Assembly (NCBI GenBank): GCA_021850485.1
Contig: JAJZLY010000014.1
Span: 1-64,000 of the forward strand
DNA length: 64,000 nucleotides
Reading direction: 5' to 3'
From: Bacillota bacterium
GTDB taxonomy: Bacteria > Bacillota > Sulfobacillia > JAJZYS01 > JAJZLH01
Position numbers and translations under genes: made by a program. The notes under the pieces were generated by a model. It had not been told where the DNA came from, ran no database searches, and was given only the letters and a program-made list of their open reading frames with translations. Numbering within the stretch: the stretch's first letter is position 1; every line of letters starts with the position of its first letter. Below are positions 14,185 to 20,248 of this stretch, in pieces.

Positions 14185-14913
14185 TTAGACCTGTTGCGCC
14201 AGGAACTCTGCGATCGCCGCAGCCACCTTCTGCGGTGCTTCTAGAGGCAACAGATGGCCGGCTCCTTCGACCACCACCAACTGGGCGCCAATGGCGTCGA
14301 CCAGGGCGTTGGCGTATTTCAAGGGTGTGTACTGGTCGTCTGTGCCGGCCAGGACCAGCGCTGGCATCCCCTTCAGCGCCGCTAGGTCGTCCAGCCGATC
14401 AAAGCCATCGCACGCCAGGAAATCACCGTACGTGACCGCGACCGGTGCGCTACCCATTCGATCGAGAAGGGCAACTGGCGTCTGGGGAGACAAATAGGCC
14501 CTTCGGAAATTCTCCAAAAACACCCCTGCCGCCAGGCTGCTCAGCAGCTGGGCATTGACGCGCAGCCTGCCGCCGGTGGCGATCAGGACCAGGGCCTTGG
14601 GCCGAAACGGCCCGTCTAGGGCCAAGGTGAGGCTGATGGCTCCGCCCAGCGAGTGGCCGCCCACTGTTCGCGGCGTCCACCCGCCCGCTGTCAGCAGGCG
14701 GCTCACCCAGCTGGCGTACGATGCGACGGTGTTCAGGCCTGGCCCCTCGCTTTGGCCATGGCCTGGGAGATCCGGAGCAAACGCATCTGGGAGCCGTTCG
14801 AGCAGATCCGAAAAAACATCAGCGCTCTCGCCTGCGCCATGCAACAACAAAAGGCCGTCCCCGGGCCGGCCATGGATGGTGACTCGCCTTTCGTCCACCA
14901 TCAACTCAGGCAC
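14185..14913 (-). CDS. Alpha/beta hydrolase
   Basis: A cytosolic serine hydrolase of 242 residues. The nucleophile elbow is GGHSLGGAIS (Ser), the acid is likely in LAGTDDQYTP and the His in VEGAGHLLPLEAP. The oxyanion-hole region is LLLLHGAGESAD. Substrate unknown; position at the end of an acyl-CoA dehydrogenase / hydratase-like operon suggests an ester or thioester of an acyl intermediate. The GTG start overlaps the previous gene by 8 nt. Confidence 0.85.
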   Translation of the reverse strand: MPELMVDERRVTIHGRPGDGLLLLHGAGESADVFSDLLERLPDAFAPDLPGHGQSEGPGLNTVASYASWVSRLLTAGGWTPRTVGGHSLGGAISLTLALDGPFRPKALVLIATGGRLRVNAQLLSSLAAGVFLENFRRAYLSPQTPVALLDRMGSAPVAVTYGDFLACDGFDRLDDLAALKGMPALVLAGTDDQYTPLKYANALVDAIGAQLVVVEGAGHLLPLEAPQKVAAAIAEFLAQQV

Positions 14914-15667
14914 CTGCCTCGCCCCCCGCCTGGTCGTCAGACGCCCCCGATTGCGCAGTGGTTGGGTTCCGGCTGGCCTTGAACCGGGCCACCGCCTGCT
15001 GATGTGCCGGCCCTTCCCAGAGCCTGGCGAATAGACCCGGACTCACGGCGCTTTCCCGCTTGATCGCCGCCACAGCATCGGGGGCGAGTTCAGCCAATTG
15101 ATCCGCCTGGTGCCGGGCTGTCACTAAATCCGCTACCACCCGATCGGCCAAGCCTGCGGCCAGGGCTTGTTCGGCGCCAATCCACTGAGGGTCCAGAAAT
15201 AGGCTCCGACCGCGAGCGGCACCTAGCCGCCCGATCGCTCGCTCGAGACCTCCCCAGCCCGGGACCAGCCCCATCTCCAACTGTGCGGCCCGCAGTCGGG
15301 CCTGCGGGTGCATCCAGATCAAGTCGGCGGCCAGGGCCAACTCAACGCCACCGCCCAAAGCCACACCCTCCACCCAGGCCACGCTCAGGGCCGACGCTCG
15401 GGAGAGGTCTAGCAATGCCTCCTGGACCTGCGCCATGGTCGCTTGCAGATCGGCGGCAGCCAGGCCATGCAGCTCATCCAGATCTCCGCCCGAGCAAAAA
15501 CTGCCGCCCTCCCCGCGCAACAAGACCACCGGCGCCTGCAGGCTGGCCGAAACGGCCGCACGGAACTCGACTGCCGCCTGGCGATTCAGGGCGTTCTTGC
15601 GCTGCGGCCGGTTGAGCACGATCTCCACCCGGCCGCCCGCAAACTTCTGGCAAAAGACGCTGCTCAC
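14906..15667 (-). CDS. Enoyl-CoA hydratase/isomerase (crotonase) family protein, altered catalytic residue
   Basis: A 253-residue crotonase-fold protein. The CoA-binding and oxyanion loops are present: NRPQRKNAL, GGSFCSGGDLDEL and GVALGGGVELALAADL. In classic hydratases two Glu residues 20 positions apart act on water; here the first is kept (GGGVE) but position +20 is Gln (AAQLEMGLVPGWGG), with a Glu two residues later. The reaction may therefore differ from simple hydration. The GTG start overlaps the dehydrogenase stop as GTGA. Confidence 0.85.
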   Translation of the reverse strand: MSSVFCQKFAGGRVEIVLNRPQRKNALNRQAAVEFRAAVSASLQAPVVLLRGEGGSFCSGGDLDELHGLAAADLQATMAQVQEALLDLSRASALSVAWVEGVALGGGVELALAADLIWMHPQARLRAAQLEMGLVPGWGGLERAIGRLGAARGRSLFLDPQWIGAEQALAAGLADRVVADLVTARHQADQLAELAPDAVAAIKRESAVSPGLFARLWEGPAHQQAVARFKASRNPTTAQSGASDDQAGGEAGA

Positions 15668-16812
15668 TGGCGATCCTCTTTGGCCAGCCAGCGGGCTACT
15701 ACCATCCGTTGAATTTGGTTCGTCCCTTCGAAGATCTGATAGATCTTGGCGTCTCGAAAGAGCTTCTCCACCGGATATTCCGCCATGTATCCATAGCCAC
15801 CAAACACCTGCACCGCTCGATCTGCAGCCCGCATGGCGCTGTCCGAGGCAAACGCCTTGGCCATCGAGGCTTGCGCCGAGAACTCCAAGCCCTGATCGGC
15901 CCGCCAGGCAGCCTGCACGGTGAGCAGATGGGCGGCCTCCATTTCCATGGCGCTATCGGCCAGCATGGCGGCGACCATCTCATGTTCGATGATCGGCCGG
16001 CCGAACTGACGGCGCTCCTTGGCATAGCCGACGGCTTCGTCGGTGGCCCGCCGGCCGATGCCCACAGCGTGGGCGGCGATGTTGGCCCGGGACAGATCCA
16101 AGGTGCGCAGCGCCACCTTGAAGCCATCCCCCTCCGCACCCAGGCGCAGATCTTCAGGCACGAAGGCGTCCTCAAACACCACCTCCGTGGTGTTTGAGGC
16201 CCTGATGCCCAACTTGTGTTCCACCTTGCCCGCCGTCACGCCAGGCGTCGTGGCCGGAACGGCCAGGGCCAAAACTCCCTTGGCGCCCAGCGCCGGATCC
16301 GTGGTTGCGAACACGCTGTAGAGATCGGCCACGCCGCCGTTTGTGATAAACCGTTTGACCCCGTTCAGCCGATATCCACCCGCCACTCGCTCGGCTCGGG
16401 TGGCCAGTGCCACCGCGTCCGAACCCGACCCGGCTTCAGTCAGACAGAATGCGGCGAACTGAAGTTTCTGTGTGAACCCGGTGAGCAGCCGCTGTTGTTG
16501 CTCGCGGGTGCCGGCCACCAGGATCGGGGTCAGGCCCAGATTGTTGGCAGTCTTGGCCAGCGTAATGCCAGCACAGCCCCAGGCCAGCTCCTCGGTCACC
16601 AAGGCGTCCACCCAGCGGGCCAGGCCAGCACCACCCAGCGCCTCCGGGATCTCCGGGTCGAGCAGACCGGCGTCGAACACGCGTTGCAATTCTGGGCGAG
16701 CAAACGCCCCGCTTTGGTCGTAGCCTGCGGCGGCCGGTGCCAACACCTCGCGGCCAAGGCGGCGGGCCACCGACACGACCTGACTCGCCACATCGTCTAG
16801 ATGAAAGTCCAC
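15664..16812 (-). CDS. Acyl-CoA dehydrogenase
   Basis: FAD-dependent alpha,beta-dehydrogenation of an acyl-CoA, with electrons to ETF. The 382-residue product has the signatures FCLTEAGSGSDAVALATRAE, LNGVKRFITNG, HKLGIRASNTTEV, ERRQFGRPIIEHEMV and the C-terminal QVFGGYGYMAEYPVEKLFRDAKI; the catalytic Glu is in YQIFEGTNQIQR. The GTG at 16812 is selected because GAGGGGG lies 8 nt upstream and the length then fits the family; the open frame upstream is non-homologous. First gene of a three-gene operon, divergent from the flavin reductase. Confidence 0.95.
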   Translation of the reverse strand: MDFHLDDVASQVVSVARRLGREVLAPAAAGYDQSGAFARPELQRVFDAGLLDPEIPEALGGAGLARWVDALVTEELAWGCAGITLAKTANNLGLTPILVAGTREQQQRLLTGFTQKLQFAAFCLTEAGSGSDAVALATRAERVAGGYRLNGVKRFITNGGVADLYSVFATTDPALGAKGVLALAVPATTPGVTAGKVEHKLGIRASNTTEVVFEDAFVPEDLRLGAEGDGFKVALRTLDLSRANIAAHAVGIGRRATDEAVGYAKERRQFGRPIIEHEMVAAMLADSAMEMEAAHLLTVQAAWRADQGLEFSAQASMAKAFASDSAMRAADRAVQVFGGYGYMAEYPVEKLFRDAKIYQIFEGTNQIQRMVVARWLAKEDRQ

Positions 16813-16886
16813 CTGATATGCCCCCTCGATCCCTGTTTCACTGAAAACCAGCTTCCTTCTTGGTCTGGCCGTCCCCTGCTCACCTG

Positions 16887-16895
16887 TGCGACAAT
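16887..16895 (+). promoter_or_regulatory. Extended -10 promoter candidate for the flavin reductase
   Basis: TGC followed by GACAAT (16890-16895) fits an extended -10 element; no good -35 box is seen. If used, transcription starts near 16902, which would exclude the ATG at 16894 as a start codon and leave the ATC at 16936. Confidence 0.35.
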
Positions 16896-16935
16896 GCCTG
16901 ACGGTTGTCCGCCACACTCTGGGGAGGGACTCACT

Positions 16936-17473: not shown

Positions 17474-17662
17474 GTGTTGCGTCTAGTCCTGTCGGACGTG
17501 TTCTTGGTGCTGGGCGCCATCTGGTTCCTGCAGGGCGTCGGCGCCCTGCCAGGCAGCTTCATGAGCCACAGCATTGTATGGGCGGTGATTGGTGCCGTCG
17601 TGGTCATGCTCGCCGCTCAAATGCAGCGTCGACTCGTCAGCACTGGGGCCAGGCAGAAGTGA
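17474..17662 (+). CDS. Small membrane protein, two transmembrane segments
   Basis: A 62-residue hydrophobic protein: segment 1 about residues 5-24 (LSDVFLVLGAIWFLQGVGAL), a short loop PGSFMSHS, and segment 2 about 33-50, then a basic tail QMQRRLVSTGARQK. Short proteins with the loop GSFM between two helices are common in bacteria and have no known function. GTG start with GGGAGGG 6 nt upstream, 22 nt after the flavin reductase stop. Confidence 0.7.
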   Translation: MLRLVLSDVFLVLGAIWFLQGVGALPGSFMSHSIVWAVIGAVVVMLAAQMQRRLVSTGARQK

Positions 17663-17741: not shown

Positions 17742-18908
17742 GTGACAACGCCCCCTCTGCGTAGCTGCCTGTTGCTCTTGGGCACAGCACTGTTGGTGTC
17801 GCTTTCCGGCTGTGGACTGGGTAGCGGTGTCGTCCCACCGCCAAGCGGGACGTCGCCGAGTGCCACCGCGAGCACCAAGCCGAGCAGTGCGCCCAAAGCC
17901 CAGTTGGCTTGGCACAGCCACCACACCAATCCGTACCTGCCCGGTGATGTCCTGATCGCTGACGCGGACAACAACCGCATCTTGCTGGTCACGCCGGGAA
18001 AGCGCATCGTCTGGCAATTTCCCAAAGCCGGCCAGCCTTCGCCGCTTCTCGACAACGACGATGTCTTCTTCGGGCCGCACTTCGATGAGATCATCACCAA
18101 TCAGGAGAACAACCAGGTGATCTCGATCATCAACTTCGCCCAAGAAAAGATCGTTTGGAACTACGGCCATGCTGGCGTCCCGGGGACGGCTCCAGGCTAT
18201 TTGCACACTCCGGACGATGCCTTCTTATACGACCACGCCGGCAATCAAGTCATCACGGTCGCCGATATCTACAACCAGCGCATCTTGTTCATCAGCCGGG
18301 CCACCCACCAAATCATCAAGCAGTATGGTCAGACCCGGGTCTACAGCAACAATCCCCCTGCAACCTACGCCGCACCCAACGGCGACTTCCCAGCCCCCAA
18401 CGGCGGCATGCTGATCACCTCGATCGGTGGCAACGACGCCATCTTGGTGAACAAGCAGGGCCAGGTGGTATGGACTGTCCATTTTCCGTCCAATCTCAGC
18501 CCCGGCAATATTCCCTATCCGTCGGACGCCAACTTTACGCCGCACGGAAATATCATCGTCGCCTTCTACAACAACCCTGGCGCTGTTTTGAAAATTTCCC
18601 CACAGGGCAAAGTCCTGTGGGAGTACCACCCAAGCAGCGGCCCTGGAGCCTTGAACAAGCCGTCCTTGGCGATGGAGTTGCCAAACGGCCTAGTGATGTT
18701 GAACGACGACCACAATGATCGGGTAATCATCATCAATCCCAAGACCAACCAGATCGTGTGGCAATATGGACACACCGGCGTTCCGGGAACGGCACCTGGC
18801 TATTTGAGCGATCCCGACGGCATAGACCTATTGCCAATCGGTGTCACACCTGGTGGCAACAACCCCATCGGCGCCCAGATGTGGAGCTACCCTGGCAACG
18901 GTTACTAG
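17742..18908 (+). CDS. Lipoprotein with PQQ/NHL-like beta-propeller
   Basis: A 388-residue secreted lipoprotein. The signal peptide (TTPPLRSCLLLLGTALLVSLSGCG) ends in a lipobox LSGC. The body has repeats of the type D-V-L-I-A-D-A-D-N-N-R-I and I-V-W-x-Y-G-H-x-G-V-P-G-T-A-P-G-Y-L; the last occurs twice (about residues 143 and 344), so the chain closes a propeller. Relatives are annotated as PQQ-binding-like or NHL propellers, but no cofactor residues can be named. GTG start 9 nt after AGGAGG. Directly followed by the DUF929-VKOR pair, which may oxidise exported proteins. Confidence 0.75.
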   Translation: MTTPPLRSCLLLLGTALLVSLSGCGLGSGVVPPPSGTSPSATASTKPSSAPKAQLAWHSHHTNPYLPGDVLIADADNNRILLVTPGKRIVWQFPKAGQPSPLLDNDDVFFGPHFDEIITNQENNQVISIINFAQEKIVWNYGHAGVPGTAPGYLHTPDDAFLYDHAGNQVITVADIYNQRILFISRATHQIIKQYGQTRVYSNNPPATYAAPNGDFPAPNGGMLITSIGGNDAILVNKQGQVVWTVHFPSNLSPGNIPYPSDANFTPHGNIIVAFYNNPGAVLKISPQGKVLWEYHPSSGPGALNKPSLAMELPNGLVMLNDDHNDRVIIINPKTNQIVWQYGHTGVPGTAPGYLSDPDGIDLLPIGVTPGGNNPIGAQMWSYPGNGY

Positions 18909-18938
18909 TAGCATCTCGATACCGAGAGGAGATCAGCG

Positions 18939-19841
18939 ATGGATCGCCCGACCTCGTCCAAGAAGACTGCTGTAGGTCGCCACCCGACTGCCCGAAAGGC
19001 TGCGCCGAGTCGCACCAACCTGTACCTGGTGGGGGCCCTGGTCGCCGTCTTGTTGGTGCTGGTCGGGATCCGCTTTTTATCGGCGCCAGCCGCCCCCACG
19101 GCGCTGGACGGGCAGACGGCACCAGCCAGCTTGGTCAGGCAGCTGGTCCAGGCCGGCCACAATCCCGCTGGCTACTCGGTGGCCGGTGGCGGAACTGCGC
19201 CCTATACGATCGCTGCCAGCACGCCGACCTTGAAGCTGAGTGGCAAGCCGGCGGTTGTGTTCGTCGGCGCCGAATTCTGCCCCTATTGCGCTGCCTTGCG
19301 CTGGTCTTTGATCATCGCCCTCAGCCGTTTTGGCACATTTTCCGGCCTGACCTACATGACCTCGTCCACCACCGATGTATACCCCGACACGCACACCTTC
19401 TCGTTCGCCAAGAGCCGCTACACCAGTCCTTATCTCACCTTTCTCAGCGATGAGATTGAGGGCAACGTGGCCAATGCGAGCGGCCAGTACCCCCTGCTCC
19501 AGCCGCCGACCCAATTGGAGGCGCAGCTGCTCAGCCAGTACGATGCGGCTCCCTACGTGCAGGCGACGACGTCCGGCGGCGTGCCGTTCGTGGACGTGGC
19601 CAATCGCTTCATCTGGGGGGGGTCGGTGTACGACCCGGGCCTGCTGGCTGGCCTGACCTGGGCCCAAATCGCCCAACAGCTGGCCTCTCCTGGGAGTACC
19701 CAGATCTCGGTGGCGGTCATGTCTAACGCCAATTTGTTCACCGCCGGCATCTGCAAGGCAGACGGCCAGCAGCCCGGCTCCGTCTGCCAACTGCCTGGGA
19801 TCACGCAACTGGAGGCAACGCTGCCGCCAGCCGGTCAATGA
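18939..19841 (+). CDS. DUF929-type membrane-anchored thioredoxin-fold protein
   Basis: A 300-residue protein with a basic cytosolic tail, one transmembrane anchor (about 28-46) and an extracytoplasmic domain. The motif [15 protein letters not shown] has a CxxC (Cys114, Cys117) and GGVPFVDV supplies the cis-Pro of a thioredoxin fold; two further Cys lie near the C-terminus ([14 protein letters not shown]). DUF929 proteins are annotated in archaea and some bacteria. Because VKOR follows with a 4 nt overlap, a role as DsbA-like oxidase that is recharged by VKOR is likely. Start ATG after GAGAGGAG. Confidence 0.82.
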
Positions 19842-20248
19842 CGACGTCCCGCCGCTGGCTACTCGGTCTCAGCGCCCTTGGCGTACTCGACACCATCTAC
19901 CTGACGATCGTCCACTTTCAAGCCGGTGCCTTGGTGTGTAGTTCATCCGGAGTGGTGGACTGCCATGCTGTGCTGTCCAGTGCCTATAGCGTGATCGCCG
20001 GCGTCCCAACTTCGGTCTACGGGCTGATCTGGTTTTGCGTGATCGGCCTGCTGGTCTGGAAGACGCCCAACTGGTCAGCCGCCCTGCGCCTGATCAGTTG
20101 GCTTGGTGCTCTGGTGGTCATCGCCCTGGTCTACATAGAGCTGTTCTTGGTGGGCGCCATCTGTGTGTACTGCTCGATTGCCCATCTGCTGGTGCTGGCC
20201 ATTTTGGTGATCGTAGAGTGGCATCAAGGTCGACTGGCGGCTGACTGA
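19838..20248 (+). CDS. Vitamin K epoxide reductase (VKOR) family protein, DsbB-like
   Basis: A 136-residue, four-helix membrane protein that passes electrons from a disulfide partner to quinone. The loop cysteines are Cys34 and Cys42 ([14 protein letters not shown]) and the quinone-side CxxC is Cys109-Cys112 ([13 protein letters not shown]). Length fits bacterial VKOR without fused thioredoxin. ATG overlaps the DUF929 stop as ATGA, so both are made in fixed ratio. Confidence 0.92.

Follow-up and report, generated by a model that had tools for sequence, protein, structure and literature searches.

Background

The systems closest to the one described here pair a thiol oxidase with a quinone reductase, either VKOR or DsbB, both of which oxidise their partners; in the AssT-DsbL-DsbI set, a propeller protein lies beside a private DsbA/DsbB-like pair. 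In this report we analyse a 64,000-nt stretch of contig JAJZLY010000014.1 (assembly GCA_021850485.1), hereafter the window, where three plus-strand genes at 17742-20248 encode a propeller lipoprotein, a protein of the numbered-only family DUF929 (PF06053) and a VKOR. Comparison with loci of other genomes makes it likely, at the level of sequence and gene order, that DUF929 and VKOR constitute a two-protein system forming disulfides in exported proteins, with DUF929 doing the job of DsbA.

VKOR and DsbB, according to the relevant sections of two papers, show little sequence likeness and do the same job, passing electrons from a DsbA-like protein to a quinone (PMC4555120, PMC12453122). The hallmarks given for VKOR are a loop cysteine pair, a CXXC motif and a conserved Ser or Thr (PMC4555120). 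In Actinomyces oris, the thiol oxidase MdbA is described as being re-oxidised by a separate VKOR (PMC6381275), and DsbA of Mycobacterium tuberculosis (Rv2969c) has been studied with VKOR-derived peptides (PMC3792642). At least one recent survey of disulfide formation is reported to have used the Pfam models of DsbA, DsbB and VKOR (PMC12453122).

Results

To collect loci containing DUF929, one genome of each species was scanned with six peptides taken from the window protein, GAEFCPYC among them, and the best 80 of 118 loci, corresponding to 75 genomes, were kept; the window itself (L001/L002) stands outside the linkage counts. In 46 of the 80 loci a VKOR, detected by a profile built from the window VKOR, is the same-strand neighbour, with 34-342 nt between the two domains; at the domain level it lies downstream of the nearer DUF929 in 40 cases and upstream in 6. 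When five of these 46 genomes were searched with PF07884, VKOR was found in all five. The next commonest neighbour family, as defined by BLAST clusters at 1e-6 among frames of at least 90 aa within 3.5 kb, recurs in 7 of the 80 loci. The linkage is far beyond chance.

No VKOR was found in the fetched stretch of 29 genomes: 23 of them carry one elsewhere, and 6 have none at 1e-3. In six of the 23, another DUF929 gene, in one case of a CTGC type, adjoins VKOR on the same strand. An earlier note on this DNA had called for a survey of DUF929-VKOR linkage across genomes, and its outcome is direct, same-strand adjacency in 52 of the 75 genomes, VKOR being present in 69. In G311 DUF929 lies beside VKOR on the opposite strand, and in G326 a DUF929 fragment is found near VKOR. 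No single frame matching both profiles, as a fusion would, was present in the 80 loci. The distance matrices of the two families, built on 47 pairs, correlate with r 0.867, a value reached by none of 2000 permutations.

Three loci (L007, L042 and L070) feature a VKOR gene between two tandem DUF929 paralogues, as if one VKOR served two oxidases.

The search for DsbB covered the six VKOR-less genomes and the three genomes of the window genus only. All six of the former have a DsbB above the family cut-off, and in four, two labelled Dormibacterota and two Actinomycetota, it is the immediate same-strand neighbour of DUF929, on its downstream side in L140 and L141 and on its upstream side in L142 and L145. 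A VKOR or a DsbB is present in all 75 genomes, and is an immediate same-strand neighbour of DUF929 in 56. In the tree, the DsbB-linked DUF929 of L082 groups with VKOR-linked proteins of Kribbella (100/93 support), away from the Dormibacterota pair, and the quinone-reductase partner has therefore probably changed more than once. Because VKOR and DsbB do the same job, there is no easy account of this exchange in which DUF929 is not the DsbA-like protein, and we regard the exchange as the strongest evidence for DUF929 as DsbA-equivalent. The mere presence of VKOR is weak evidence, since VKOR is reported as common in Actinomycetota (PMC12453122, in part), and it is adjacency that counts.

Within the window, DUF929 is encoded at 18939-19841 on the plus strand (300 aa; PF06053, 99.4 bits against a cut-off of 24.6, E 2.8e-28) and VKOR at 19838-20248, also on the plus strand (136 aa; PF07884, 75.8 bits against a cut-off of 27.5, E 4.7e-21). 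The stop codon of the former and the start codon of the latter overlap by 4 nt in an ATGA at 19838-19841 (+), which suggests translational coupling. The earlier note had described three plus-strand genes in a row, the last two overlapping by 4 nt, with CPYC in DUF929 and CVYC in VKOR; the coordinates agree with this layout, and the motifs are found at residues 114-117 and 109-112, respectively.

The DUF929 protein features a basic N-terminus, a hydrophobic helix (residues 26-45), a thioredoxin-like domain with CPYC at 114-117, P216, and a second cysteine pair, C272/C283; the basic stretch preceding the helix suggests that the domain lies outside the membrane. In the structural model (mean pLDDT 89.2), CPYC opens a helix after strand 103-110, as in thioredoxins, and P216 immediately precedes strand 217-220. 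The alignment of 86 proteins, the window's own and 85 from the fetched loci, shows C114, P115, C117, R121, W122, F131, G132, S142, S163, E172, P216, C272, P279 and C283 to be invariant. The invariance of C283, P216 and other residues outside the six search peptides is not built in by the search. The C272/C283 pair is most simply a structural disulfide. DUF929 proteins reached by other routes are more variable, those beside VKOR having CPFC, CPYC and, in one case, CTGC. The CTGC protein is encoded at L181:2836-3915, as a same-strand neighbour of VKOR.

The family was assigned to the thioredoxin-like clan by profile methods in 2010, according to the part of that report consulted (PMC3091736). 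The best PDB match to the model found by VIA-align is a thioredoxin (Z 6.2, root mean square deviation 2.3 over 87 residues), and thioredoxins, TlpA and DsbA all match it at Z 5.5-6.2, DsbAs at Z 5.5-5.8. By sequence, the best PDB match reaches only E 0.04. DUF929 matches neither of the DsbA-family profiles PF01323 and PF13462 at E 0.1, and searches of its own genome with these profiles do not pick out the DUF929 locus.

The window VKOR carries the features of its family, with both cysteine pairs (C34/C42 and C109/C112) and the conserved serine (Ser48); these five residues, along with P57, G62 and E101, are invariant in all 47 aligned VKORs. Its alignment to the VKOR domain of PDB 4nv6 (E 1.1e-6) places C34, C42 and CVYC opposite C, C and CMYC. 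Where VKOR occurs, a genome mostly has just one such gene.

The window genome, 97% complete, encodes one DUF929 and one VKOR. The Thioredoxin_4 profile gave no match in it at E 0.1, the DsbB profile found none, and the DSBA profile produced nothing over its cut-off and two weak matches. The stronger of these (E 0.04) was rejected as a hidden DsbA, its frame reading by eye as ribosomal protein S7; the other (E 0.09) spans 29 profile positions. Three thioredoxin matches were obtained: a short thioredoxin, an AhpC-TSA/Redoxin-type protein and a 706-residue frame. A separate DsbA-VKOR pair, named in the earlier note as the finding that would speak against DUF929 as the oxidase, was sought in this genome and not found. 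The Thioredoxin_4 profile was also run, alone, on 65 DUF929 genomes, namely the window's own and 64 of the 75 (7 Kribbella, 3 Thermogemmatispora and 1 Ktedonobacter left out): 18 are matched at 1e-3 and 14 above the cut-off, so that 47 and 51 have no match. In well known control genomes, the same profile matched in 9 of 14.

In a sample of 299 genomes of the window's own phylum, both families are rare: DUF929 was found in 2 and VKOR in 10, 8 of which over the cut-off. Both DUF929 genomes belong to the window genus, and in both VKOR adjoins. In the tree, a long branch (0.77) unites the window DUF929 with those of L003 and L004, which come from G281 and G772, both of the window genus; the nearest sequences by path are labelled Micrarchaeota. 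Since no other genus in the phylum sample showed a DUF929, the genus probably acquired the DUF929-VKOR pair from outside, beside an older lipoprotein gene. Several related bins presumably come from acid mine drainage, to judge by their names.

A second sample comprised 398 archaeal genomes from the phylum to which G326 belongs; this genome, labelled Nitrososphaerales, contains L081. PF06053 matches in 25 of them, with up to 6 matches per genome, and 26 of the 30 loci returned align with the DUF929 model. In 19 of these 26 (L088-L101, L103, L113-L115 and L117) CPxG replaces CPYC: the first cysteine is kept and the second lost, and the C-terminal pair is missing, some proteins retaining one cysteine there. 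We take these CPxG loci to be of Sulfolobales, from the known range of the family. Of the remaining 7, all with CPYC or CPFC, 2 have VKOR next to them, in contrast to none of the 19 CPxG loci (within about 1.5 kb). The five CPxG proteins included in the tree stand apart on a long branch (2.73). Judging from these sequences, the name PF06053 probably covers a redox and a non-redox branch, and its best-scoring members are probably not oxidases; because the CPxG branch differs, the proposal of a DsbA-equivalent is limited to DUF929 of the CXXC type. In favour of the proposal, two DUF929 proteins, which may or may not be of the CPYC type, are reported in the Picrophilus secretome (PMC8345856).

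The third gene of the trio, at 17742-18908 (+), encodes a lipoprotein of 388 aa, with a GTG start, AGGAGG upstream and the lipobox LSGC. Its AlphaFold2 model, built on 11 sequences, contains 24 strands, arranged as six blades of four (mean pLDDT 79.9), and has NHL propellers as its best PDB matches (E 2.9e-15), in support of the propeller fold proposed earlier; among Pfam families, PQQ_2 matches one bit below the cut-off. Cysteines occur only at position 9, within the signal peptide, and at position 24, which bears the lipid, the mature part being otherwise cysteine-free; in the L003 and L004 copies, too, none follows the lipobox in the readable parts (L003 is partly masked). When the 80 DUF929 loci were searched with the single sequence at 1e-3, a relative was detected in L003 and L004 only. 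Among 61 genomes of the class, 14 contain relatives, and of the 20 loci returned by that class-wide search only four, all from three genomes of the window genus, have DUF929 and VKOR within about 1.5 kb. In L126-L129, from other genera, the propeller has two cysteines 21 residues apart, which are missing in the window genus, the reverse of what would be expected of a client of DUF929-VKOR.

The earlier note had suggested that this lipoprotein may be a client or a redox-enzyme scaffold, and neither role is supported. As a client it is rejected on its cysteine count, and as a scaffold it is unlikely from the distribution, the orthologues of other genera having no DUF929 or VKOR within 1.5 kb; a scaffold role restricted to this genus is possible. 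Since the mature part is cysteine-free, relatives elsewhere occur without the pair and the linkage is confined to the genus, the lipoprotein is probably a neighbour, outside the DUF929-VKOR module.

In the part of the window genome that was sampled, some proteins are possible disulfide clients, on the evidence of their cysteines. They are a LytR-CpsA-Psr protein, which has two, and lipoproteins in which six and about four occur in close pairs. The LytR-CpsA-Psr protein is encoded at L146:11923-13173. In Actinomyces oris, a protein of this family is described as needing a disulfide and being less stable without VKOR (PMC6381275, in part). The six cysteines of the lipoprotein at L153:11621-12580, a candidate client which has no Pfam match, are arranged in CXnC spacings.

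A promoter scan of the locus found none. Three terminator-like sites were detected at the locus, against 1.6 expected by chance, one of them within vkor. Upstream, a short GTG frame (17474-17662, +; 62 aa), with two hydrophobic stretches and, by eye, a G-rich site before it, sits between the flavin reductase and lipoprotein genes. Farther off, frames resembling alpha/beta hydrolase, enoyl-CoA hydratase and acyl-CoA dehydrogenase, named by eye, follow in a run on the minus strand (14185-16917). The acyl-CoA dehydrogenase-like frame and the flavin reductase (16801) adjoin the module in both other genomes of the genus as well.

Discussion

We consider it likely that DUF929 and VKOR act together in forming disulfides. 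The earlier proposal of DUF929 as the DsbA-equivalent is supported, at the genomic level, by operon linkage, the VKOR/DsbB exchange, residue conservation and the fact that no DsbA can be recognised. In the mechanism we envisage, DUF929 would be anchored by its single N-terminal helix, with the thioredoxin-like domain outside the membrane, and the CPYC disulfide would be passed to cysteines of freshly exported proteins. Reduced CPYC would then be re-oxidised by the loop cysteines C34/C42 of VKOR, from which electrons would flow to C109/C112 and on to a membrane quinone. The topology, the direction of electron flow, the quinone and the substrates are all inferred.

Several observations weigh against this proposal. 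In 19 of the 75 genomes, no DUF929 gene was seen as an immediate same-strand neighbour of VKOR or DsbB; some of these genomes, such as those of L060 and L080, have the fetched DUF929 at the end of a contig. Common species history is not corrected for in the permutation test, and the correlation of the distance matrices is to be expected of partners as well as of shared descent. The conservation of CPYC is largely built in by the search, since 81 of the 86 aligned proteins carry the peptide GAEFCPYC exactly, and the linkage counts are valid for this branch only. As to the fold, a Z of 6.2 may, according to the warning of the tool itself, reflect a common arrangement only, and Foldseek found no match to the DUF929 model with E below 1e-3. 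Eight of the 10 VKOR-matching genomes of the phylum sample are without DUF929, which implies that VKOR often has another partner. A Thioredoxin_4 match is present in 18 of the 65 DUF929 genomes as well, and the window genome itself also encodes the AhpC-TSA/Redoxin-type protein, which has a WCGPC motif and a hydrophobic N-terminus, is TlpA/ResA-like by eye and is the sole other anchored thioredoxin-like protein recognised. Finally, cysteine numbers in exported proteins show no clear even bias: among 42 predicted single-anchor proteins, 18 have no cysteine, 13 an even and 11 an odd number (24 cysteine-bearing), in a scan of 464 kb (20 stretches and the window, 29% of the genome) based on crude gene and signal calls, some counts including the lipid-bearing cysteine.

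Alternatively, DUF929 could be a disulfide reductase or isomerase, or a metallochaperone partner of the TlpA/Sco type, VKOR serving it otherwise or being linked for regulation. The VIA-align rows tied with the best include TlpA (Z 6.0) and the TlpA from a ScoI complex (Z 5.7), ScsC-type proteins rank high in the Foldseek results, if with E values of 0.2 or worse, and the second cysteine pair of DUF929 is unusual. However, the slot beside DUF929 is filled by VKOR and DsbB alike, enzymes that oxidise their partners, and no reductase-type neighbours stood out, by eye, among the recurring families; we therefore find this alternative quite unlikely. The TlpA/ResA-like thioredoxin might instead be the true partner of VKOR, leaving DUF929 with a different role. 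It is indeed encoded, with its hydrophobic N-terminus and a thioredoxin-type CXXC, but its gene and vkor lie on separate contigs (C2 and C19), while a DUF929 gene is found beside vkor both here and in 52 of 75 other genomes, and WCGPC proteins are usually reductants, all of which makes such a partnership very unlikely.

An AssT-DsbL-DsbI-like set, dedicated to the propeller lipoprotein as its special client, is suggested by the order and classes of the three genes (propeller, DsbA-like, DsbB-like). The client version of such a set is already refuted by the missing cysteines, none following the lipobox in the window lipoprotein, in L004 or in the readable part of L003; moreover, no arylsulfotransferase Pfam match was obtained at E 0.1, and orthologues occur with no DUF929-VKOR pair nearby. 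We regard this explanation as extremely improbable. A bolder version of the preferred reading, that of a DUF929-VKOR disulfide-forming pair, appears doubtful: CPYC-type DUF929 would be a separate class of disulfide donor for VKOR or DsbB, C272/C283 a second redox centre, an electron relay linking CPYC to the quinone reductase, the pair of oxidase and reductase would have moved as a unit between acid-dwelling bacteria and archaea, and the archaeal CPxG branch would have turned to a non-oxidase job.

In a survey based on the DsbA, DsbB and VKOR Pfam models, the organism of the window would score as having VKOR without DsbA. If the two-protein system proposed here holds, DUF929 oxidases would fill this gap in genomes labelled Chloroflexota, Actinomycetota, Dormibacterota, Bacillota and Micrarchaeota, a function would be provided for part of a family known by number only, and a natural case would be at hand of one oxidase using two quinone reductases of little sequence likeness. 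No description of a DUF929-VKOR link was found in the literature searched, which consisted of titles and the beginnings of abstracts, with few subscription journals and preprints covered. In this literature the name DUF929 occurs in just three papers, one of which is on a fungus.

Comparison with known systems

The MdbA-VKOR and M. tuberculosis DsbA-VKOR systems share with the predicted DUF929-VKOR system, as far as the cited parts of their descriptions go, a membrane-bound extracellular thiol oxidase and a separate VKOR. Unlike MdbA and M. tuberculosis DsbA, DUF929 matches no DsbA profile, contains a further cysteine pair that never varies and is in most cases encoded next to VKOR. With E. 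coli DsbA-DsbB the window pair has in common the combination of a CXXC thiol oxidase with a quinone reductase, and DsbB itself adjoins in four DUF929 loci; in the window, VKOR stands for DsbB and DUF929 for DsbA.

The VKORC1/thioredoxin domain protein of PDB 3kp9 and 4nv6, which we take to be that of Synechococcus, has the VKOR domain in common with the window. In contrast to that fusion, the window encodes the two proteins separately, by genes with a 4-nt overlap, and the partner of VKOR differs from a classical thioredoxin. High-scoring archaeal PF06053 proteins belong to the same Pfam family as the window DUF929 and have their first cysteine in the same position; at 19 of the 26 archaeal loci, however, they differ from it in having CPxG and lacking the C-terminal cysteine pair. 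In comparison with AssT-DsbL-DsbI, the window propeller has no cysteine to oxidise, and its linkage to the pair is seen only in the genus. The mechanism is one already known from DsbA-VKOR and DsbA-DsbB; what was not found described in the literature searched is the putative oxidase class, which genome context strongly supports.

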